DNA of 64,000 bases from Mycobacterium sp. KBS0706. Its GTDB lineage: Bacteria; Pseudomonadota; Alphaproteobacteria; DSM-16000; Inquilinaceae. The notes under the pieces are model-generated. The model was not told the origin of the DNA. It did no database searches and saw only the letters and a program-made list of their open reading frames with translations. Location: the NCBI RefSeq assembly GCF_005938675.2, contig NZ_VCCH02000036.1, positions 1-64,000 of the forward strand. Direction: 5' to 3'. The translations under genes were made by a program, and so were the position numbers. Positions 3,105 to 17,295 of this stretch are shown one piece after another (the first letter of the stretch is position 1; each line of letters begins with the position of its first letter).

Positions 3105-3557
3105 ATGACGAGGCCGACAGCGGGCAGCCGGACGAGACAAGACACCCCCGCCCGAAAAAGCGCGTCTGACCCGGGCATAGGCGGGATGGCGTTTGCCGGC
3201 GCGGGTTTCGTCACGGTCTTCATCGACGAGGCCGGTATCATCGACGTCGATCGCGTCGCCGATGCCTTCCGCATGACCAAGGGGCAGCTTGCCGAGACGG
3301 TCGGCCTCGCTGCAGCGACCGTGAGCAAGGCCGAGCGCCGCACGGCTCCCCGCACCCAGTCGCGCATGCTCGAAATGCTGGAGATCGTCTCGCGGATTCG
3401 CGAATGGGCCGGCGGCGAAACCCAGGCGATGGCCTGGTATCGATCGCAGCCGATCCCCGCGCTGGATGGGCGAACGCCGGAAGCGCTGGTCAAGGCCGGC
3501 GAGGCCGGCGCGGTCAGGGACTATCTCGATCACCTGGCGCTCGGGGGATACGCTTGA
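3105..3557 (+). CDS. Xre/MbcA/ParS-type antitoxin
   Basis: A 150-residue DNA-binding antitoxin of the Xre-RES toxin-antitoxin class. It has a helix-turn-helix (MTKGQLAETVGLAAATVSKA, about residues 58-77). The C-terminal toxin-binding domain (DUF2384-like) contains AWYRSQPIPALDGRTPEALV and ends in the usual short tail. In this class the antitoxin neutralises the partner by occluding its active site and represses the shared promoter. The next gene starts inside this gene's stop codon. The ATG at 3105 has a GGAG about 10 nt upstream. An internal ATG at 3186 is possible, because the first 27 residues are low-complexity and poorly conserved in appearance. Confidence 0.88.
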   Translation: MTRPTAGSRTRQDTPARKSASDPGIGGMAFAGAGFVTVFIDEAGIIDVDRVADAFRMTKGQLAETVGLAAATVSKAERRTAPRTQSRMLEMLEIVSRIREWAGGETQAMAWYRSQPIPALDGRTPEALVKAGEAGAVRDYLDHLALGGYA

Positions 3558-4072
3558 GGTTCACCGGCCGCTGCTATCGCGGCCACGACCCGACATGGTC
3601 CTTCTCGCCGCTTTCAGGCGCGGGAGCCGCGAAGACCGGAGGCCGGTTCAACCGAAAAGGCAGGCCGACCCTTTATCTGTCGCTCGACGTCATGACCTCG
3701 ATCGGCGAGTGCACCCAGGGCCTGACCCAACGGCTGCTGCCGCTGACGATGTGCGAGTACGATGTCGACTGCGAACCCGTCGCGGATCTGAGGGACGGCG
3801 CCGGGCGCGATCACCATGGCATCACGCTGGCGGAACTGGGCTGCGCTTGGCTGCGCCATCTGCGCGATGGCGGGGACGCACCGTCCTGGCTGGTCGCGGA
3901 GCGGCTCGAGGCGGATGGCTTCGTCGGCATGCTGGCGCCGAGCTTCGTGCCCCATGCGACCGAGGCCAACTGCAACCTGATCCTGTGGCGCTGGGGTCCC
4001 GAGCTGCCGGCCCGCATCGTCGTGTTCGATCCGACCGGGCGCCTTCCCAGGGACCAGCTGTCCTGGACGTAA
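3554..4072 (+). CDS. RES-domain toxin
   Basis: A 172-residue RES-domain protein. Characterised members (MbcT, ParT) attack NAD+ or use it to modify targets, causing growth arrest. Visible family features are the N-terminal RCYRGHDP, the arginine in GGRFNRKG, LYLS before the glutamate in IGECTQG, and a C-terminal SFVPHATEANCNLILW segment with FDPTGRLPRD. A TTG codon at 3554 overlaps the antitoxin's TGA by 4 nt and is the natural start, so translational coupling probably keeps toxin below antitoxin. The next gene is separated by 231 bp containing a palindromic repeat. The family assignment is firm; the substrate is inferred from relatives. Confidence 0.87.
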   Translation: MRFTGRCYRGHDPTWSFSPLSGAGAAKTGGRFNRKGRPTLYLSLDVMTSIGECTQGLTQRLLPLTMCEYDVDCEPVADLRDGAGRDHHGITLAELGCAWLRHLRDGGDAPSWLVAERLEADGFVGMLAPSFVPHATEANCNLILWRWGPELPARIVVFDPTGRLPRDQLSWT

Positions 4073-4171
4073 CCGGCATAAATCCGTTCATGAAATTCGG
4101 ATCGGGGATATTCGGCGACACGGCGGGACTGCCCCTTGAGCAAGCAAGGGAATGTCTGCCATTCCCTCTTT

Positions 4172-4249
4172 TGTCATGCCCGGGCTTGACCCGGGCATCC
4201 AGACGGCGTCGACATCCTCCGGATTGCCGGGTCAAGCCCGGCAATGACA
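4172..4249. repeat. Dispersed palindromic repeat, family A (copy 1)
   Basis: A 78-bp element in the gap before the threonine dehydratase. It has two hairpins, CCCGGGCTTGACCCGGG and TTGCCGGGTCAAGCCCGGCAA, and outer ends TGTCAT / ATGACA. A second copy lies at 62787-62867. REP-like elements of this form are typical of intergenic DNA in alphaproteobacteria. Confidence 0.85.
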
Positions 4250-4303
4250 GCAAAAGTTAATGCTCTGATTTAAATTCCGTCGGTAACTGGCTGAGAAAAA
4301 ACA

Positions 4304-5278
4304 ATGATCGTCTCCGTCACCGATATCGAGGCTGCCGCCGACCGCCTGCGCGGCCAAGCCGTGCGCACGCCGCTCCTGCGTTCGCCGCTGCTCGACGCCC
4401 GGGCCGGGCGCGAGGTGCTGGTCAAGGCCGAACCGCTGCAGCGCACCGGGTCCTTCAAGTTCCGCGGCGCCTACAACCGGATCGCCATGATCCCGGAGGC
4501 GGACCGGGTCCGCGGCGTGGTCGCCTTCTCCAGCGGCAACCATGCCCAGGGCGTGGCGGCGGCGGCCCGGCTGTTCGGCATCAGGGCCACGATCGTGATG
4601 CCGGCCGACGCCCCGGCGATCAAGCGGCGCAACACCGAATCCTACGGCGCCACCGTCGTGGCCTATGACCGCTTCGGCGAGGACCGCGAGGTGGTGGCGG
4701 CGAAGATCCAGGCCGAGACCGGCGCCACTCTGGTGAAGCCCTATGACGACCCCGGCATCATCGCCGGCCAGGGCACGATCGGCCTGGAGATCGCCGAGCA
4801 ATGCGCCGAGCTGGGCGTGCGCCCGGACGCGGTGCTGGTCGGCTGCAGCGGCGGCGGCCTGGTCTCCGGCATCTCGGTGGCGGTGAAGGCGCGGCTGCCG
4901 GGCACGCGGATCTATGCGGCCGAGCCGGAGGCGCTGGACGATATGCGGCGGTCGCTGGCCGCCGGAGAGCGCGTGAAGAACGACCCTGCGGCGCGGTCGA
5001 TCTGCGACGCGCTGCAATCCCCCACCCCGGGCGAGATCACCTTCTCGATCGCGCGCGAGACGCTGTCGGGCGGCGTCACCGCCCCGGACGACGCGGTGCT
5101 GCGGGCCATGGCCGTGGCCTTCGACACGCTGAAGCTGGTGGTCGAGCCGGGCGGCGCCATCGGCCTGGCGGCGACGCTGGAGCGGCGGATCCCGGACGAC
5201 ATTCGCAGCGTCGTCATCGTCTGCTCCGGCGGCAATGTCGATGCCGCCACCTTCCGCGACGCCCTGGCGACGCTCTGA
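4304..5278 (+). CDS. Threonine/serine dehydratase (PLP-dependent)
   Basis: A cytoplasmic PLP enzyme of the fold-type II serine/threonine dehydratase family that converts threonine to 2-oxobutyrate, or serine to pyruvate, plus ammonia. The 324-residue protein has the PLP-binding lysine in GSFKFRG (Lys52), the SSGNHAQG substrate loop near residue 75, and the phosphate-binding glycine run CSGGGL near residue 183. There is no C-terminal ACT domain, so it is the short, catabolic-type form without isoleucine feedback regulation. The short PAS-like gene downstream begins 5 nt after its stop and is probably co-transcribed. Threonine, serine and hydroxyaspartate specificity cannot be separated by eye. 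Confidence 0.88.
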   Translation: MIVSVTDIEAAADRLRGQAVRTPLLRSPLLDARAGREVLVKAEPLQRTGSFKFRGAYNRIAMIPEADRVRGVVAFSSGNHAQGVAAAARLFGIRATIVMPADAPAIKRRNTESYGATVVAYDRFGEDREVVAAKIQAETGATLVKPYDDPGIIAGQGTIGLEIAEQCAELGVRPDAVLVGCSGGGLVSGISVAVKARLPGTRIYAAEPEALDDMRRSLAAGERVKNDPAARSICDALQSPTPGEITFSIARETLSGGVTAPDDAVLRAMAVAFDTLKLVVEPGGAIGLAATLERRIPDDIRSVVIVCSGGNVDAATFRDALATL

Positions 5279-8272: not shown

Positions 8273-10270
8273 ATGGACCAGGATTCCACCCTTTCGCGCG
8301 TTCAGCGCTACGAGCAGCAGGACGACCGCAGCAGCAACGCTTCCGACAACCCGACCATGGGCGACATCGTCAATGCCCGCTTCGGCCGGCGCGGCATGCT
8401 GCGCGGCGCCCTGGCCGTCTCGGCGATCAGCGCGGTGGTGGGGCCGGCGGCGTTCCTGTCGAACAGCCGCCCGGCCCAGGCCGCCTCCGCCTCGCGCTAC
8501 GTGTTCGAGGAGCTCGAAGCCGGCGTCGACGCCAAGCACCATGTGGCCAAGGGCTACGACGCCGACATCCTGATCCGTTGGGGCGACCCGGTGGTGAAGG
8601 GCGCGCCCGCCTTCGACGTGCAGAAGCAGACTGCCGCGGCGCAGGAGAAGCAGTTCGGCTACAACAACGACTATATCGGCTATGTGCCGCTGCCGCTGGG
8701 CTCGACCTCGAGCGACCACGGCCTACTGGTGGTGAACCACGAATACACCGACGCCGCGATCATGTTCCCCGGCCTCGCCGACGCCAAGGGCGAGTTCGAG
8801 CTGTCGCAGCAGAGCAAGGAGCAGGTCGACATCGAGATGGCCGCGCACGGCCAGTCTGTGATCGAGATCAAGCGCGGCGCCGACGGCAAATGGGCCGTGG
8901 TGCCCGACAGCGCCTATGGCCGCCGTATCACCGCGCTTTCGACCGAGTTCCTGGTCACCGGCCCGGCCGCCGGCCATGACCGGCTGAAGACCTCGGCCGA
9001 CAAGACCGGCACCAAGGTGATCGGCACCATCAACAACTGCGCCGGCGGCACCACCCCCTGGGGCACCACGGTGCACGCCGAGGAGAACTTCAACGGCTAT
9101 TTCGGCGGCGAGCTGAAGGACGACCATCCGGAAGCCCGCAACTACAAGCGCTACGGCATGGGCGAGGCGGAGTACGGCTGGAGCCTGCACCATGACCGCT
9201 TCGATGTGGTCAAGGAGCCGAACGAGGCGAACCGCTTCGGCTGGATCGTCGAGATCGACCCGACCGACCCGACCTCGACCCCGAAGAAGCGCACCGCGCT
9301 GGGCCGCTTCAAGCATGAAGGCGCCGAGAGCATCGTCGCCAAGGACGGCCGCGTCGTCGTCTACATGGGCGACGACCAGCGCTTCGACTACCTGTACAAG
9401 TTCGTCACCGCCGGCACGTTCAACCTGAACGACCGCAAGGCGAACATGGACCTGCTGGACCAGGGCACGCTGTACGTCGCCAAGTTCGACGCCGACGGCA
9501 AGGTCGCCTGGATGCCGGTGGTGTTCGGCCAGGGCCCGCTGACCGAGGCCAACGGCTTCAAGAGCCAGGCCGACGTGCTGATCGAGACCCGCCGAGCCGC
9601 CGATCTGCTGGGCGCCACCAAGATGGACCGGCCGGAGGACGTGCAGCCGAACCCGGTGAACGGCAAGGTCTATGTCATCCTGACCAACAACGACAAGCGC
9701 AAGGCCGAGCAGGTCGACGCCGCCAATCCGCGGCCGGAGAACAAGTTCGGCCACATCGTCGAGATCACCCCGGCCGATGGCGACCACACCGCCACCGCCG
9801 CCGCCTGGGACCTGCTGGTGAAGTGCGGCGACCCGAGCGTCGCCGCGGTCGGCGCCACCTTCCACCCCGGCACCAGCAAGAACGGCTGGTTCGGGTCGCC
9901 CGACAATTGCGAGATCGACGCCGACGGCCGGCTGTGGGTCGCCACCGACGGCAACAACTTCAAATACAGCGGTCGCGCCGACGGCATCTGGGGGCTTGAG
10001 ACCGAGGGCGAGGCCCGCGGCACCGGCAAGCTGTTCTTCCGCGTCCCGGTCGGCGCCGAGATGTGCGGCCCGAAGATCACCCCCGACCTGGCCACCTTCT
10101 TCGTCGCGGTGCAGCATCCGGGCGAAGGCGGCAAGGAATGGCCGGAATTCGGCCGCCCCAGCACCTTCGCCGATCCGTCGACCCGCTGGCCGGACTTCCA
10201 GGACGGCGTGCCGCCGCGCCCCTCGGTGGTGGTGATCACCAAGCAGGGCGGCGGCAAGATCGGAGTTTGA
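8273..10270 (+). CDS. phoX: PhoX-family alkaline phosphatase
   Basis: A secreted phosphatase that releases inorganic phosphate from organic esters. Well-studied PhoX enzymes use iron and calcium. The 665-residue protein is exported folded by Tat: the motif FGRRGMLRG at about residues 38-46 is followed by a hydrophobic run and RPAQA. The mature part is a DUF839-type beta-propeller, with HGLLVVNHEYTDAA, NNCAGGTTPWGT, HEGAESI, DDQRFDYLYKF, MDRPEDVQPNP and FGSPDNCEIDADGRLW in family order. The start at 8273 gives the usual long n-region before the twin arginines. Phosphate-starvation control is expected, and a weak Pho-box-like site lies upstream. A strong terminator follows about 160 bp after the stop. 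Confidence 0.95.
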   Translation: MDQDSTLSRVQRYEQQDDRSSNASDNPTMGDIVNARFGRRGMLRGALAVSAISAVVGPAAFLSNSRPAQAASASRYVFEELEAGVDAKHHVAKGYDADILIRWGDPVVKGAPAFDVQKQTAAAQEKQFGYNNDYIGYVPLPLGSTSSDHGLLVVNHEYTDAAIMFPGLADAKGEFELSQQSKEQVDIEMAAHGQSVIEIKRGADGKWAVVPDSAYGRRITALSTEFLVTGPAAGHDRLKTSADKTGTKVIGTINNCAGGTTPWGTTVHAEENFNGYFGGELKDDHPEARNYKRYGMGEAEYGWSLHHDRFDVVKEPNEANRFGWIVEIDPTDPTSTPKKRTALGRFKHEGAESIVAKDGRVVVYMGDDQRFDYLYKFVTAGTFNLNDRKANMDLLDQGTLYVAKFDADGKVAWMPVVFGQGPLTEANGFKSQADVLIETRRAADLLGATKMDRPEDVQPNPVNGKVYVILTNNDKRKAEQVDAANPRPENKFGHIVEITPADGDHTATAAAWDLLVKCGDPSVAAVGATFHPGTSKNGWFGSPDNCEIDADGRLWVATDGNNFKYSGRADGIWGLETEGEARGTGKLFFRVPVGAEMCGPKITPDLATFFVAVQHPGEGGKEWPEFGRPSTFADPSTRWPDFQDGVPPRPSVVVITKQGGGKIGV

Positions 10271-10306
10271 GGTTCAGAAAGTACGCGTAACTGCCTGACA
10301 ATTCCT

Positions 10307-10402
10307 CATTGCGACCCCGGCCTTGAGCCGGGGGAAGCAATTCGGGGGCGCAAGAGCGGCGACATGGATTGTTTCGTCCGCTTCGCCTCCTCGCAATGAC
10401 GG
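10307..10402. repeat. Dispersed palindromic repeat, family B (copy 1)
   Basis: A roughly 96-bp element with ends CATTGCGA / TCGCAATG and an interior hairpin (CAATT...GATTG with GGCGCAAGAGCGG between). It shares its right end, CTCCTCGCAATGACGG, with the copy at 37394-37480. Confidence 0.7.
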
Positions 10403-10426
10403 TTCAGGCTTCTGAGAAGCAGCACG

Positions 10427-10457
10427 AACCTCCCCGCTCCGGCGGGGAGGTTTTTTT
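10427..10457 (+). terminator. Rho-independent terminator downstream of phoX
   Basis: An 11-bp perfect stem (AACCTCCCCGC / GCGGGGAGGTT) with a 4-nt loop is followed by a run of seven T. It is the only intrinsic terminator between phoX and the next gene. Confidence 0.88.
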
Positions 10458-10544
10458 GTCGCCGCCTTGCACTCCGTCTTGCCGCCGGGCGAGGTCCTAT
10501 CGATATTGGGGCCCAGCCCGCGAGACGATCGGACCACACGGACC

Positions 10545-10943
10545 ATGAGACGCCTGAACGCGGCCACCGCGGCCGCCATCATCGCCCTGCTCGGGCTGAT
10601 CAGCGCCGCCCGGGCGCAGAGCAACGACCTGTATGTGCTTGGCATCGCTCTGTTCGTCGCCTGCATCGGCGTCGTCATGCTGCTGATCAAGCAGCATTTC
10701 GACGCCCGCGAGAACCGGCCGAGCGGCGCCTTCCTGCCGAGCGAGCCGGACTCCTGCTTCGTGGTGACCTTCCTGCTCGGCCTCCTGGCCGTGGTCGGGC
10801 TGATCGCGGCGACCTCGCCCGAGTTGTACCGGGTCGGGCTGGGCGTGTTCGCCGTCAGCATCATCGGCGCCGGCGCGGCGCTGAAGCGGGGCTACGACCT
10901 GATCGACCGCGGCCACGCCGAGGACCATGCGGATGCGCATTGA
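10545..10943 (+). CDS. Small membrane protein, unknown function
   Basis: A 132-residue protein I do not recognise. Hydrophobic segments lie at about residues 7-24 (signal peptide or first membrane span, ending SAARAQS), 29-47 (LYVLGIALFVACIGVVMLL), 72-90 (CFVVTFLLGLLAVVGLIAA) and 96-113. It probably spans the inner membrane three or four times. The C-terminus is acidic and histidine-rich (RGHAEDHADAH), which could bind metal, but that is speculation. It stands alone after the phoX terminator. The ATG at 10545 follows GGACC rather than a strong ribosome site. Confidence 0.65.
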   Translation: MRRLNAATAAAIIALLGLISAARAQSNDLYVLGIALFVACIGVVMLLIKQHFDARENRPSGAFLPSEPDSCFVVTFLLGLLAVVGLIAATSPELYRVGLGVFAVSIIGAGAALKRGYDLIDRGHAEDHADAH

Positions 10944-10994
10944 AGCCATGCGTTGCGACGGCCCGTCGCAGCTCCGAACCCCGCCTTCGGTTGC

Positions 10995-11023
10995 TTGACA
11001 ATTTTGAATTCGCTACCAAATCC
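10995..11023 (+). promoter_or_regulatory. Putative promoter of the candidate small RNA
   Basis: A perfect TTGACA at 10995-11000 is followed, after 17 nt, by a poor AAATCC. Transcription would begin around 11028-11031, just before the first hairpin of the candidate small RNA. The -10 box is weak, as is common in alphaproteobacteria. Confidence 0.45.
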
Positions 11024-11027
11024 ATAG

Positions 11028-11188
11028 GGCGGCCGGCGATGGCTCGTCCCCCCAGCCATCGCCAAGATCCTCCGATGGGATCGATTTAGCCGTCAGCCAG
11101 GCCGAACGCTCCCTCCCCTCCGAGCGGATCGACCAGGCTTAAGAACGGCCCCGACGCTTCCCCCCGCGTCGGGGCCACTTCTTTTTCT
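11028..11188 (+). ncRNA. Candidate small RNA with C-rich hairpin loops
   Basis: This 160-nt segment has no credible ORF but a strong RNA layout. Hairpin 1 (11035-11063) has a 10-bp perfect stem, GGCGATGGCT / AGCCATCGCC, closing the loop CGTCCCCCC. A small hairpin (11066-11082, GATCC/GGATC) follows. Hairpin 3 (11107-11126, CGCTC/GAGCG) presents the loop CCTCCCCTCC. The last is a terminator whose loop is also C-rich. Loops of this kind are complementary to Shine-Dalgarno sequences and characterise the CcsR and alpha-r14 small RNAs of alphaproteobacteria, so it may repress translation of several mRNAs. A TTGACA box sits at the right distance upstream. The function is inferred; I cannot say which family, if any, it belongs to. 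Confidence 0.6.
11147..11185 (+). terminator. Rho-independent terminator of the candidate small RNA
   Basis: An 11-bp perfect stem (GGCCCCGACGC / GCGTCGGGGCC) with loop TTCCCCCC is followed by ACTTCTTTTT. No protein-coding gene ends nearby, which argues that it terminates a non-coding transcript. Confidence 0.85.
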
Positions 11189-11384
11189 GCTTCAAGATCC
11201 AGCCGAAACACATTGGATTTTATGGACTCCGGCTGGAGTGCCGGCGCTTGCTCAGGACCGGCCACTTTCGGTTCTGTCGTTTCCCGTCGGATTTCCTTCG
11301 CCAAAGCGATTGACAAGCCCTTCGCAGCGCAACATGGATGCTTAACGCAGTTGCAGCATCGCGGCTGCCGCACGGGGAGGCACC

Positions 11385-14342
11385 ATGCCGGATACGCGCC
11401 CAGCCACGCCTCGGCCGGAGGATCGGACGACACCCCTCGCCCGCGAGCTGACGCAGCTGCTGAAGCGCTACGAGAAATCCCAGCGCGAGGACCCCTTCGC
11501 CAACCCGATCCAGCATCTGGCGCTGGAGCTGTCGCGGCGCCTGGCCGACGGCAAGCTGGGTTATCGCGACATCGAGGAGCTGATCGGCCATCTGACGACC
11601 GAGGGCTTCAGCCACCGCGCCGCCCGGCTCGGCCGGTATCTCGGCGAGACCGGGCCCGAGGCCAATGACGCGACGCTGCGCGCCCTGTTCCTGCGCCTGG
11701 CGAAGGACGCCAAGGGCAAGACCGTGCCCTTCGCCGCCTTCCGCCGCCGGGTCGAGAGCGAGGCCTTCGGTGCCGTCTTCACCGCCCATCCGACCTTCAA
11801 CCTGTCCGGCGCCCTGATGGCCGACCTGGCGGTGCTGGCGGTCGGCCGCAGCCCCGACGGCACGCCGCTGAGCGACGAGGCCCGGACTGCCCTGCTGGCC
11901 CGCGCCGCCGCGGTCGAGCACCGGCCGGACGAGGATCTGAGCCTGGCGCGCGAGCACGCCCTGTCGCTCGACGCCATCGCCAATGCCCGCGCCGCGCTGG
12001 GCCGGGCCTGGGGCATCCTGCTGGACGTCGCCCGCGACGCCTTTCCCGAGGATTGGCGCAGCCTGACGCCGCGGCTGGTCACGCTGGCCTCCTGGGTCGG
12101 CTACGACCTCGACGGCCGCTCCGACATCCGCTGGACCGACACGCTGCACAAGCGCCTGCTGGTCCAGGCGGCCCAGCTCGACCACTATTTGTCCGAGGTG
12201 CGGGCGATCCGGTCCGGGGTGCCGCGCGGCGCCGCCGACCTCATGGAAACGCTGGACCTGCTGGAGAGCCGGGTGGCGCTGGCCATCGCCCAGATCCGGG
12301 ACGAGGTCGCCGCCTTCGCCGTGGCCGATCCCGGCTCGGCCGCCGGGCGCGAGCAGATTCGCGTCATCAGCCAGCGCATCCATGCCGGCCAGGCGCTGCG
12401 CCTGACCGAATCCGCCAGCCTGATCGCGATCGTCGACCGGGCGCTGGAGCGCACCGACGACCCCGATTTGTCGCGCCGCTTCTGCCTGCTGCGGGCCGAG
12501 CTGGCGACGCATGGGCTGGGTGCCGCCCACAGCCATGTGCGGATCAACGCCACCCAGGTGCACAATGCCATCCGCAAGGCGGTCGGGATGGTGTCCGACC
12601 CGAACGATCCGCGCTACCGGCAATCCTATCTCGACCGGCTGAACGCGCTGCTCGACGCGGTCGAGCCGATGACGGTCAATTTCGGCTCGCTGTTGTCGGA
12701 GCGCACCTCGGTCAAGCGCCTGTTCATGCTGCTGGCGCAGATGCTGAAATACAACGACCGCTCGGCGCCGATCCGCTTCCTGATCGCCGAGAGCGAGAGT
12801 GCCCTGACCTGCCTGACCGCCCTGTACTACGCCCGGCTGTTCGGGGTCGACGGCATGGTCGACATCTCGCCGCTGTTCGAGACCGAGAAGGCGCTGGAAA
12901 ATGGCAGCCGGATCATCGAGCAGCTGCTGGAGAACCCGCACTATCGCGCCTATGTCCAACGCCGCGGCCGCGTCTGCGTCCAGACCGGATACTCCGACGC
13001 CGGCCGCTATCTCGGCCAGACACCGGCTGGCGCCTCAATCGAGCGGCTGCGCCTCAGGCTGATCCGGGTGATCGCCAAGGCCGGGCTGCCGGACGTGCAG
13101 CTCTTGATCTTCGACACCCATGGCGAGTCGATCGGCCGCGGCTGCCATCCGGGCGGCATCGCCGACCGGCTGTCCTATGTCGACCCGCCGGCGACCCGCG
13201 CCTTCATGGCCAGCCAGGGCGTCGGTTTCAAGCAGGAGGTCAGCTTCCAGGGCGGCGATGGCTATCTCTACTTCGCCCATCCCGACATGGCCTATGCCGT
13301 GGTCACCCGCATCCTCGAGCACATCCTGGCCGAGGTCGACGGCACCCAGGACGGCAAGGTGGCGGACGACCCGTTCTATGACGAAGCCTCCTATATCCGC
13401 GAGTTCTTCACCACGGTGAAGGAGTTCCAGGTCCGGCTGATGGAGAGCCGCGACTACGGCGTGCTGCTGCAGGCGCTGGGCCCGAACCTCCTGTTCCCCT
13501 CCGGCAGCCGCGCCACCAAGCGGCAGCACGAGGACCCGAGCGAGCTGGACCACGCCATGCCGTCGCAGCTGCGCGCGATCCCGCACAACGCGATCCTGAT
13601 GCAGCTGGGCCTCATGGCCAACAGCGTCGGCGGCGCCGGCGCCGCCATCGCCAAGGACCCGGAGCGGTTCCGCGAGCTCTACGCCGCCTCGCCGCGGTTC
13701 CGGCAGTTGATCGGCATCGTCACCTACGGCGCCTCGGCCAGCAACCCGGCGGCGATGAGATCCTATATCGACGCGCTCGACCCCGGATCCTGGATCACCC
13801 GCGCCGCCGCCACCGGCGACCGCGAGCAGGCGGACCGGATGGTGGCCCTGTCCGGCCATCTCGAGCCGATGCCGGTGTATGAGCGGCAGAGCCGGGTGTT
13901 CCGCGCCCTGCACAAAGACTTCATCCTGCTGCGCGAGGGGCTGGAAAGCATCGCCGAGCAGTCGCCGCATGTCGACGCCGCCAGCCGCGACGCACTGGCC
14001 GTGCTGCACGCGGTGCGCTTGGCGCTGATCCAGGAGATCTTCCTGCTGGCGATGCGGATTCCGGAATTCTCCAGCCGGCACAACCTGACCCTGAAGCAGG
14101 TGATCGCCCGGGTCCTGCATCTCGACGTGCTGCCGGCGGTGACCTCGCTGGAGGAGATCTTCCCGCTGACCGAGGACACCATCGCCGTGGCCGATTTCGG
14201 CGAGACCGCGACCTACCGCTCGGATGAGAGCCAGAACTACCAGTTCGAGAACGAGCGGATCTTCCGCCCGATGCGGCAGCTCTACGGCCTGGTGCGCCGG
14301 GTCTCGGCCGCGGTGGTGCACCGGACCGGCTTCTTCGGCTGA
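11385..14342 (+). CDS. Phosphoenolpyruvate carboxylase homologue (divergent)
   Basis: A 985-residue member of the PEP carboxylase family, whose classical members form oxaloacetate from PEP and bicarbonate. Family landmarks are the catalytic-histidine block FTAHPTFNLS (His135), GYDLDGRSDIRW near residue 243, the long mid region, VCVQTGYSDAGRYLG near residue 535, HGESIGRGCHPG (His579) and VSFQGGDGYLYF. Several differ from the classical enzyme: AHPTF instead of AHPTE, GYSDAGRYLG instead of GYSDSAKDAG, and HGESIGRG instead of HGRGGSIGRGG. The C-terminus is RTGFFG rather than the usual RNTG. Activity as a carboxylase is therefore unproven. The ATG at 11385 follows GGGGAGG at ideal spacing. It is convergent with the RTX gene. 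Confidence 0.78.
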   Translation: MPDTRPATPRPEDRTTPLARELTQLLKRYEKSQREDPFANPIQHLALELSRRLADGKLGYRDIEELIGHLTTEGFSHRAARLGRYLGETGPEANDATLRALFLRLAKDAKGKTVPFAAFRRRVESEAFGAVFTAHPTFNLSGALMADLAVLAVGRSPDGTPLSDEARTALLARAAAVEHRPDEDLSLAREHALSLDAIANARAALGRAWGILLDVARDAFPEDWRSLTPRLVTLASWVGYDLDGRSDIRWTDTLHKRLLVQAAQLDHYLSEVRAIRSGVPRGAADLMETLDLLESRVALAIAQIRDEVAAFAVADPGSAAGREQIRVISQRIHAGQALRLTESASLIAIVDRALERTDDPDLSRRFCLLRAELATHGLGAAHSHVRINATQVHNAIRKAVGMVSDPNDPRYRQSYLDRLNALLDAVEPMTVNFGSLLSERTSVKRLFMLLAQMLKYNDRSAPIRFLIAESESALTCLTALYYARLFGVDGMVDISPLFETEKALENGSRIIEQLLENPHYRAYVQRRGRVCVQTGYSDAGRYLGQTPAGASIERLRLRLIRVIAKAGLPDVQLLIFDTHGESIGRGCHPGGIADRLSYVDPPATRAFMASQGVGFKQEVSFQGGDGYLYFAHPDMAYAVVTRILEHILAEVDGTQDGKVADDPFYDEASYIREFFTTVKEFQVRLMESRDYGVLLQALGPNLLFPSGSRATKRQHEDPSELDHAMPSQLRAIPHNAILMQLGLMANSVGGAGAAIAKDPERFRELYAASPRFRQLIGIVTYGASASNPAAMRSYIDALDPGSWITRAAATGDREQADRMVALSGHLEPMPVYERQSRVFRALHKDFILLREGLESIAEQSPHVDAASRDALAVLHAVRLALIQEIFLLAMRIPEFSSRHNLTLKQVIARVLHLDVLPAVTSLEEIFPLTEDTIAVADFGETATYRSDESQNYQFENERIFRPMRQLYGLVRRVSAAVVHRTGFFG

Positions 14343-14381: not shown

Positions 14382-17030
14382 TCAAAGAACGAAGTCGGTG
14401 CGGACCAGCGTAAAGGCGTTGACGACATCGATCTGCATGTCGGCGGCCTTGTCACCGTTGATGTCGACCAGCACCGACTGAACGCTGCCGCTCACCATCA
14501 CCCGCACCTCATGCCCTGCACCGGTGAAGACATTGGCCCCGAGGAAGGTGAAGGCGGTGTTGCCGTTGCCGGAGTTGCCGTCGGCATCGATGACGGAAAG
14601 GTCGATCCGGTCGCGGTCCGGGTTCCAAAAATCGGAGATCGTGTCCCGGCCCGCCGCCGCGACGGTGCTGTCGCCCACCGCGCCATACATGAACCAGTCC
14701 CCGCCGGCCCCGCCGGTCAGGACGTCAGCTCCGGAACCACCGACCATGCCATCATTGCCGTCGCCACCCTTGAGGGCGTCGTTGCCGCCGGCCCCCATGA
14801 GAGTGTCGGCGCCGCCCAGGCCCCACAGCGTGTTGGCGCCGGCATTGCCCCCGACTGTGTCGGCAAAGGCTGAGCCCTGGACGTTCTCGACGCCGGTCAG
14901 CGTGTCGCCCGCGGCATCGCCGGCGGTGCCGACCCCTGTGCCGAGGCTCAGCCGCACGGCGCCGGAGGCGTTCGCAAAATTGACGACGTCGATGCCGCTA
15001 CCGCCGTCCAGGATGTCGGCGCCGGCGCCGCCGACGAGGCTGTCATTGCCGTCGCCGCCGCGCAGCGTGTCGGTGCCCGCCTCGCCATAGAGCGCATCGT
15101 CGCCGAGCCCGCCGACGAGCCCGTCGTTTCCGGCGCGGCCCCAGAGAGTGTTGGCTCCGGCATCGCCGGTCAGCATGTCGGCATAGGCGGTGCCGCCGAC
15201 CGTCTCGATGCCGGACAGGACATCGCCCTGGGCGTTGCCGCCGGACGCGGTCCCGGCGCCGAGATTGATCGCCACGCCGGTGGCGTTGCGGGCGGGATCG
15301 GCGTCGTAATCCGCCATGTCGGTCCCGGCGCCGCCGTCCAGCCGATCGACGCCGGCGCCGCCGAAGAGCGTGTCGTTGCCGGCACCACCGGCGAGGACGT
15401 CGTTGCCGGCACCGCCATTCAGCATGTTGGAGCCGGCATCGCCGGTGAGGGTGTCGGCGAAGGCTGTTCCAACCACCCCTTCTATGCCGACGAAGCCGTC
15501 GCCGGCGGCATCGCCGCCGCTTTTGGCGCCGGTGGCCAGGTTGATCGTCACCGCAGCGCCGGAGGTGTCATAGATCGCGACATCGTTGCCGTTGCCGCCG
15601 GTCAGGACGTCCGCCCCGACGCCGCCGACCAGCCAGTCGTCGCCGTCGCCGCCGTCGAGCCAGTCGGCGCCGCCGGCGCCGGACAGGCGATCCGACCCGG
15701 CTATACCCCACAGACCGTTGGCCCCGGCATCGCCGGCGATCGTATCGCCGAACGCCGAACCCACGACCTGCTCGATGCCGGCAAAGCTATCGCCCGCCGC
15801 ATCGCCGCTCGTGCCGCCACCGACGCCGAGCCCGAGAGCCACTCCCGCCAGGGCATCGGCGTAGTTCGCGGTGTCGATGCCGATGCCCCCGTTCAACACA
15901 TCCGCGCCGGCGCCGCCGACGAGCGTATCGTTGCCGTCGCCGCCCGCCAGGCTGTCGGTACCGTTCCCGCCCCAGAGAGCATCATTGCCGGCATTGCCGG
16001 AGAGCTGGTCATCGCCGCTTCGGCCCGATAGCGTGTTGGCACCGCCGTCGCCGGTCAGGGCATCGCTGAAGGCGGAACCGCTGACCAGTTCGATGCCGCT
16101 CAGCGTATCCCCGGCCGCGTCGCCGCCGCTGCCCATGCCGGTGGCGAGGTTGACCGTCACTCCGGCCGCGGAGGCCCCGTATTCGGCCCGGTCGGTGCCA
16201 GCACCGCCATCGAGCCGATCCGCCCCGGCACCACCCGTGAGCAGGTCGTCTCCGGCCAGTCCCCACAGCGTGTTGGTCCCGGCATTGCCAGTCAGAGCAT
16301 CGTTGAAGTTGGCGCCACGTACATTCTCGATGCCGATCAGGACGTCGCCGTCGGGTCCGGTTCCGGTGGCCAGGTTCACGGTCACCGCGAGGAAATATCG
16401 ATAGTCGACGGTGTCGATGCCGGCGCCGCCGTCGAGGCGGTCGGCATCCTGGCTTCCGATCAGGACATCGTTACCGGCGCCGCCTGAGACCGTGTCGCGG
16501 CCCGCCGCCCCGTCGAGCTCGTTATTTCCCGCATCGCCGATCAGCGTATCGCCGAACTGGCTGCCGATGACGTTTTCGATGCCGATCAGCGTGTCGCCGA
16601 CGCTGCTGGTCCCGGCCACGAGGTTGACCGTTACCTCGCGATCAGGGTTGTAGTCGGAAAAGAAGGAGGCCGTGTCGATGCCGGCTCCACCGATCAGGAT
16701 GTCGGCACCGCCATTTCCGCCAAGAATGTCATCACCAACACCGCCGTCCAACCGGTCGGCCAAATTCGCGCCCGCAAGCCTATCGTTCCCCTCCAGCCCC
16801 CAAAGATTTTGAACCGTCAGATCATCATATCTGATATTAATTAGATCATCGAAATTGGTGCCGAAAATCGTATGGCAAGTCGCTATATTCGATACAATCT
16901 CACCACCCGAGCTTCCGATATTAGCTACCGTAAAATACTCCTGTCGATAATCGGGATAATATTGGTAAAAAGCTCGAATTCCATTGGCACGGCCGCTGAG
17001 ATCGAGGACGCCATCGACAATCGGCTCCAT
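14382..17030 (-). CDS. RTX repeat calcium-binding secreted protein
   Basis: An 882-residue protein built almost entirely of GGxGxDxLxGG-type nonapeptides, which bind calcium and fold as parallel beta-rolls after type I secretion. The nonapeptide blocks alternate with seven copies of a spacer of the form [26 protein letters not shown]. The last 95 residues ([19 protein letters not shown] ... FTFLGANVF ... [13 protein letters not shown]) match the serralysin-type C-terminal domain that carries the secretion signal. There is no N-terminal signal peptide and no catalytic domain, so it may be a surface or biofilm matrix protein. The ATG at 17030 has AGGGGA upstream; an in-frame GTG at 17228 would add 66 residues. 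The first 250 bp or so are notably AT-rich. Confidence 0.88.
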
Positions 17031-17295
17031 GAACGCTTCCCCTGTCAAATCCGGCAAGTCTATCGGTTGGCCTGGCGCCGCGCCGCCGTCACCGGATAGA
17101 TCACTATTATGAATAATTTCATATACTTTAAAATCGATCCCCCGGCAATGCCAAACGTTCCGGCACCGCGTGACAGTCGGCTCATGGCACGACGTCGTCG
17201 GGGACCGGGCGGAGGGTTCCGCGCGCACCCATCCTTCCGCCGGCGGCCGGAACCCTTTAGAACGGGATCAACCGCTTCAGCGATCGATCGAGACC

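Follow-up and report, generated by a model that had tools for sequence, protein, structure and literature searches.

A conserved candidate small-RNA gene with C-rich hairpin loops upstream of a PEP carboxylase-like gene in Inquilinus

The RNAs closest to the element described here carry C-rich or CU-rich sequences resembling an anti-Shine-Dalgarno. CcsR RNAs form hairpins with a C-rich loop motif, which they have in common with the element, and the S. meliloti RNA smrC7 (smrC7/sra03) is one that we take to be ar7. According to the cited papers, smrC7 is present in one copy and has RpoD and RpoH1/2 promoters (PMC7143759), and ar14 carries an identical CCUCCUCCC in all three of its hairpins, on hypervariable stems (PMC10746234, PMC7143759). 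For NfeR1, the loop motifs pair with the translation start region and lower an ntrB fusion, an effect not seen with a variant in which the three motifs are mutated (PMC10746234). The four CcsR RNAs arise by processing of the 3' UTR of a DUF1127 mRNA that has an RpoHI/HII promoter (PMC10253847, PMC8625941); CcsR1-4, or 'cuckoo' RNAs, at CIN1 loci resemble the element in that the locus ends in a terminator on its 3' side. CU-rich anti-Shine-Dalgarno seeds are shared as well by the aR8 RNAs SisA-D of Caulobacter and by AbcR/ar15 but are described there as lying in a single-stranded stretch or in unpaired regions, whereas those of the element sit in each of three hairpin loops. No description of the element was found in the titles and abstract openings of the literature on NfeR1/CcsR, cuckoo RNAs, CIN1/DUF1127 and Smr7C, nor in the literature on Inquilinus limosus small RNAs, the latter being a weak test whose terms matched loosely.

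Anatomy, fold and conservation in Inquilinus

The window, which is the whole stretch of 64,000 nucleotides that was analysed, contains the element and its promoter-like sequences as follows.

11028..11188, plus strand: candidate small RNA of about 160 nt, with a putative start near 11028; fold z -5.9; 94.8% mean pairwise identity
10995..11000, plus strand: -35-like box TTGACA; TTGACAATTT in 6/6 Inquilinus loci
11018..11023, plus strand: weak candidate -10 sequence AAATCC, 17 nt past the -35-like box; unmatched in the sigma-70 scan
11035..11063, plus strand: hairpin 1, loop CGTCCCCCC (11045-11053), perfect 10-bp stem
11066..11082, plus strand: small hairpin 1b, GATCCT-CCGAT-GGGATC, from the sequence and the predicted fold
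11095..11139, plus strand: hairpin 2, upper stem and loop 11107-11126, loop CCTCCCCTCC (11112-11121), perfect 5-bp stem with an interrupted lower part
11147..11176, plus strand: terminator hairpin, loop TTCCCCCC (11158-11165), perfect 11-bp stem
11177..11188, plus strand: T-rich tail ACTTCTTTTTCT directly after the terminator hairpin, terminator-like

In the minimum-energy fold an outer helix (11028-11033 with 11089-11094) encloses hairpin 1 and the small hairpin 1b. The minimum free energy of the element is -82.5 kcal/mol, compared with a mean of -57.05 (sd 4.33; z -5.9) over 200 dinucleotide shuffles, none of which folded as low. The C-rich seeds of the three loops are CGUCCCCCC, CCUCCCCUCC and UUCCCCCC; CCUCC-type motifs are found in loop 2 only, loops 1 and 3 being oligo-C. 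The element shows the features of the anti-Shine-Dalgarno-loop class, since its C-rich seeds are conserved and lie unpaired in stable hairpins, and it has its own terminator. The original prediction had named a TTGACA box, which is present at 10995-11000, just outside the proposed RNA, and three hairpins with C-rich loops plus a terminator, all found in the sequence and in the fold together with a small fourth hairpin (11066-11082) that it did not list. It also described the stems as perfect, which holds for hairpin 1 (10 bp) and the terminator (11 bp), but hairpin 2 is perfect for five pairs and interrupted in its lower part. A sigma-70 consensus scan of 10200-11500 found no promoter site. 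Over the same interval no terminator-like site was found on the minus strand, and a minus-strand reading of the element, with G-rich loops, was set aside.

A loose finder of C-rich loops (stems of at least 6) called six three-hairpin clusters across 20 shuffled strands; the two real strands of the window gave it none, the element included, of which two hairpins passed. It called the element as three C-loop hairpins once stems of at least 5 were allowed. The C-loop pattern by itself is weaker evidence for a small RNA, and the case for one is carried by the folding energy and, above all, by conservation.

When 96 genomes were searched, the element turned up in six of Inquilinus, that of the window and five more at 89-92% identity, and the 11 remaining genomes of the family gave no match. 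I. limosus DSM 16000 is among the Inquilinus loci (L015, identified with an exact 26-base probe). The terminator alone was matched in one distant genome of the 96 (G048), which belongs to a different family of the class; at about 1408-1538 of its locus L007 there are three hairpins with the loops CCCTCCCT, CTCCCCA and CTTCCCC, and the terminator stem there matches the first ten pairs of the window's terminator. R1, a covariance model of the six Inquilinus sequences, recovered one copy per genome in 6/6 (window match 11027-11186), the best 150 of 3,133-4,488 first-look candidates being scored per Inquilinus genome, and found no copy in the 11 remaining genomes of the order, again with 150 first-look candidates scored per genome. 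Across 385 genomes of the class, with 7 candidates scored per genome, R1 gave its own matches and four further, weak ones; the highest-scoring of the four, L022 (33.7 bits), is a strong terminator that lacks C-rich loops, and C-rich terminator loops are present in L023 and L025 (26.8 and 23.5 bits).

Among the six genomes the RNA has a mean pairwise identity of 94.8%, with 142 of 163 columns invariant, next to 68.3% for the spacer upstream of the -35 box, 85.9% for the promoter stretch and 49.8% for the post-terminator spacer (20/103 columns invariant), the least conserved stretch measured, so that conservation begins at the promoter and ends at the terminator. The corresponding values for the downstream gene are 92.3% over its first 100 codons and 85.5% at the third positions of its first 92 codons. 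The alignment of the six shows no change in loops 2 and 3 and one C/T change in loop 1. Because the six sequences are close, double-sided changes within the genus are few: one of 54 predicted pairs (A2 131/146) occurs as A-U, G-U and G-C, and pair A2 18/30, in hairpin 1, runs U-G, C-G, U-A. Compensatory changes in the stems had been named beforehand as a test, and they were seen, though as few events.

The PEPC-like neighbour and its upstream region in other genera

The element lies between a gene for a 132-aa protein without a Pfam match, upstream, and a PF00311 gene, downstream, for which the relevant features are these.

11310..11315, plus strand: TTGACA belonging to the downstream PEPC-like gene, distinct from that of the small RNA; 91.6% identity among the six genomes over 11284-11384
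11374-11380, plus strand: Shine-Dalgarno GGGGAGG of the PEPC-like gene, complementary to the CCUCCCC of loop 2
11385..14342, plus strand: divergent PEP carboxylase-like gene; PF00311, 65.8 bits over residues 110-589

Judged by its sequence, the protein encoded at 11385-14342 belongs to a divergent PEPC-like family, and it was matched in 24 of 142 genomes of the class, four of them weakly (E 1e-4 to 1e-11). Elsewhere in the window lie a PhoX-type alkaline phosphatase gene (8273-10270, plus strand; PF05787, 589.6 bits), with a strong terminator-like hairpin behind it at 10426-10453, and, on the minus strand at 14382-17228, a gene whose product carries many nonapeptide repeats of the RTX calcium-binding type (PF00353, 11 stretches).

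Within the order, the PEPC-like gene is present in six of 11 genomes of other genera, and the region upstream of it was inspected in one locus per genome (L032, L033, L034, L035, L036 and L039). A diverged C-tract version of the element was found there in two of the six, L032 (G014) and L033 (G012), whose PEPC-like proteins are 65% and 63% identical to that of the window; in the other four (L034, L035, L036, L039) no counterpart was seen by eye upstream of the gene. TTGACA is also found upstream of the gene in L032, L034 and L035. The automatic finder called a three-hairpin cluster in all five Inquilinus loci given to it and in none of the six other-genus loci, L032 and L033 included, nor in any of 15 class loci, in a sample of 26 loci from which some partial loci were omitted.

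The hairpins of L032 carry, in order, UCCCCCC (loop CCCCCCAACC in the best fold), CCCUUCCCCUCC (loop CCCUUCCCC) and, in the terminator, CUCCCCC (loop CCCCCAA), each C tract being partly unpaired (fold z -5.0), and its terminator tail, CTTCTTT, is the same as that of the Inquilinus element. For L033 (fold z -2.9), UCCCCCC and CCCCCC share one loop, UGCCCCC lies in another, CUCCCCC is unpaired and the terminator loop is not C-rich. When R1 was run with its filters off (66 matches over 12 loci), its best matches in L032 (21.3 bits) and L033 (17.7 bits) each fell inside the C-tract elements; the L032 match covers the part from hairpin 2 to the terminator only, and the next places in that locus reach 16.9 and 16.2 bits. 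Aligned to the six Inquilinus sequences, the L032 terminator keeps 11 of 11 pairs, with all 77 cells paired (slid controls, 38-46%), and three of the 11 pairs are changed on both sides, a number reached by 5 of 500 shuffles. Hairpins 1 and 2 of L032 gave no sequence alignment to the Inquilinus element, so their homology rests on order, C tracts, place and the terminator.

The proposal of a small-RNA gene with C-rich loops is borne out by the conservation from promoter to terminator, by the compensatory changes and by the diverged counterpart in two other genera. What computation gives is the anatomy, the stability of the fold, sequence selection, a few compensatory changes, one copy found per genome and this counterpart, and we consider it very likely that 11028-11188 is a real conserved small-RNA gene.

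Proposed mode of action and alternative readings

We propose that a small RNA of about 160 nt would be transcribed independently from its own promoter near 11028 and would end at its own terminator. Stable hairpins would keep the C-rich seeds CGUCCCCCC, CCUCCCCUCC and UUCCCCCC single-stranded, and these could base-pair with the purine-rich Shine-Dalgarno regions of several mRNAs, covering them and lowering translation of the paired mRNAs, with a choice of targets that may be redundant or divided among the loops. We infer transcription, exact ends, Hfq dependence, pairing and repression alike. By analogy with NfeR1, the blocking of Shine-Dalgarno regions by the loops is likely; it was already part of the original prediction, for which duplex energies in one window now speak, the remainder being inference and the CCUCC-type motif being confined to loop 2. 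The exact pattern of the 16S 3' end was not found in the genome's own assembly, and for this reason the comparison with an anti-Shine-Dalgarno relies on general knowledge.

Strong Shine-Dalgarno sites favour any RNA with C-rich loops. When 43 greedily called ORFs of the window, with guessed gene starts, were ranked, the start region of the PEPC-like gene came third for best loop duplex in this crude test, at -15.4 kcal/mol with loop 2; the corresponding site in L005 is CGGGAGG. The neighbouring PEPC-like mRNA is, from its sequence, a plausible target and is offered as a lead only. The best-ranked partner (42492, minus strand, with loop 1) was set aside, as its G run directly abuts the ATG.

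Our preferred reading is that the element is probably an independently transcribed, trans-acting small RNA of the anti-Shine-Dalgarno-loop kind, working in the manner of NfeR1. A more daring version, which we hold to be rather unlikely, would make it an undescribed small-RNA family linked to the divergent PEPC-like gene across at least three genera, which would regulate that gene (loop 2 against GGGGAGG) and other carbon-metabolism mRNAs, its non-identical loops sorting targets, unlike the redundant identical loops of ar14. The association with the gene could also be read in cis, the element being a leader or attenuator of the PEPC-like gene whose hairpins and terminator control read-through. 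Its position before the same gene in three genera and a terminator about 200 nt upstream of the start codon agree with such a role, but no stretch measured is less conserved than the spacer that separates terminator and gene (49.8%), four of the six other-genus loci of the order have no counterpart before the gene, and the gene has a conserved TTGACA region of its own, seen too where the RNA was not found (L034, L035), which makes a leader less likely than an independent gene; we regard the leader as improbable.

A different partner for the loops is conceivable, in that they might mainly bind another RNA, such as a G-rich sponge, or a protein, and not the ribosome sites of mRNAs. The Caulobacter aR8 RNAs SisA-D, with their UUUCCUCCCU stretch, are reported to be bound by a G/A-rich stem loop of the sponge CrfA, but SisA is also reported to repress many targets, likely via the same motif (PMC12559287), and we consider this reading quite improbable for the element. 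The plainest account would be a terminator with chance hairpins in a GC-rich spacer, or else a gene for a small peptide. Loose clusters of C-loop hairpins do arise in shuffled sequence (the six in 20 strands given above), and there are open frames: five of the six genomes have a plus-strand frame of 16 codons at hairpin 1, which in L005 and L006 forms the last part of a longer one, an additional plus-strand frame of 48 codons occurs in L006, and all six have an open minus-strand GTG frame of 28-30 codons over the terminator. Against this, the plus-strand frame is missing in L004, which has a 1-nt insertion, the minus-strand frame overlies the terminator and its second half differs in the window's own copy, and the conservation of the RNA, which is confined between promoter and terminator and accompanied by compensatory pairs, equals that of the adjacent coding DNA. 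Judged from the open frames alone, a coding role of the element is unlikely, and chance hairpins or a peptide gene together strike us as very improbable. If the trans-acting small RNA that we prefer is real, it would extend regulation by anti-Shine-Dalgarno loops to a genus in which six genomes have no ar14 or ar7 match at threshold, and it would do so with a well-bounded gene that lends itself to deletion and testing and that the searches found once per genome.

Comparison with CcsR, ar14 and ar7

The likeness to CcsR that had been suggested does not extend to genomic context: the element was found in one copy, has its own promoter-like box and has no adjoining DUF1127 gene. DUF1127 is present elsewhere in all 17 genomes of the order, and 11 Inquilinus DUF1127 loci, taken from at least 52 matches, gave no C-loop cluster and no Rfam match up to E 0.1; a CIN1 link of the element in Inquilinus was sought at these loci and not found. 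Two of 30 DUF1127 loci have a hairpin cluster, L066 and L088, the latter resembling coding DNA; in L066 (G008, 1650-1890) the C-rich-loop cluster is less than 300 bases from the DUF1127 match, and this is possibly a CIN1-type locus.

A search of the window against Rfam at curated thresholds gave no match. With relaxed thresholds, over 451 bases, ar7 (RF02342) was the top match by bits (32.0 of 60, E 1.2e-4) and ar14 (RF02344) the second (31.7 of 58.8, E 3.1e-4), both at full length, and ar15 and suhB were absent among the 10 matches. The ar14 likeness claimed at the outset is therefore present but below threshold (31.7 vs 58.8 bits), and ar7 is its equal or slightly better. In other Inquilinus loci ar7 scored 28.3 (L002) and 25.0 bits (L015), and ar14 27.5 bits in L003, L005 and L015, all below threshold; over 31 kb of relatives, five of five relaxed matches (E up to 0.5) were ar7 or ar14 at the element (L002, L003, L005, L015). 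The elements of G014, G012 and G048 (L032, L033, L007) had no Rfam match up to E 0.5. R1 in turn matched the ar14-type elements of G037 (22.7 bits) and G058 (21.3 bits), which are sub-threshold for ar14 itself.

Searched over 96 relatives, with 32 candidates scored per large genome, ar14 gave seven sub-threshold matches in six genomes, none of them in Inquilinus, and ar7 at E 0.01, with 7 candidates scored per genome, had a match in 5 of 385 genomes of the class, the window's own being absent. Of the Inquilinus hits in an ar7 search of the order at E 10 (102 of 2,439 candidates scored in G000), the seven inspected (L097, L102, L103, L104, L107, L117 and L125) resembled protein-coding DNA or a long inverted repeat, and none of them is the element. 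Neither model reached threshold in any of the six Inquilinus genomes searched, and the model searches neither support nor exclude membership of the element in ar14 or ar7. Two stretches of other genomes came up in this connection: adjacent ar14-like hairpin stretches in G037 (L008 and L014, G037:C1:245431-245802), with loops close to CUCUCCUCCUCCCUGG and 56.9 and 52.9 of 58.8 bits, and a three-hairpin RNA-like element at about 1501-1623 of L092 (G245), its first two loops C-rich, which has the best ar7 score of the class sample (39.2 bits, sub-threshold).

Like the element, ar14/NfeR1 has three hairpins with C-rich anti-Shine-Dalgarno-like loops, but the three loops of the element differ, two of them lacking CCUCC, whereas ar14 has identical motifs. 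The printed consensus loops of ar7, GUCCCC, CCCCUCUCC and a C-rich terminator loop, come near the loop order of the element, which has the three C-rich-loop hairpins in the order of the model, terminator last, and aligns over model positions 1-145. The stems differ from those of ar7, several pairs of model hairpin 1 being non-standard in the alignment, the element adds a small hairpin and an outer closing helix, and its score stays far under 60. Since the element is sub-threshold to both models, with fixed loops and changing stems, this suggests that ar7 and ar14 may be parts of one broader class split by sequence-weighted models. The element is possibly a distant relative of ar7; we assign it to none of ar7, ar14 and CcsR, whose functional class it resembles.
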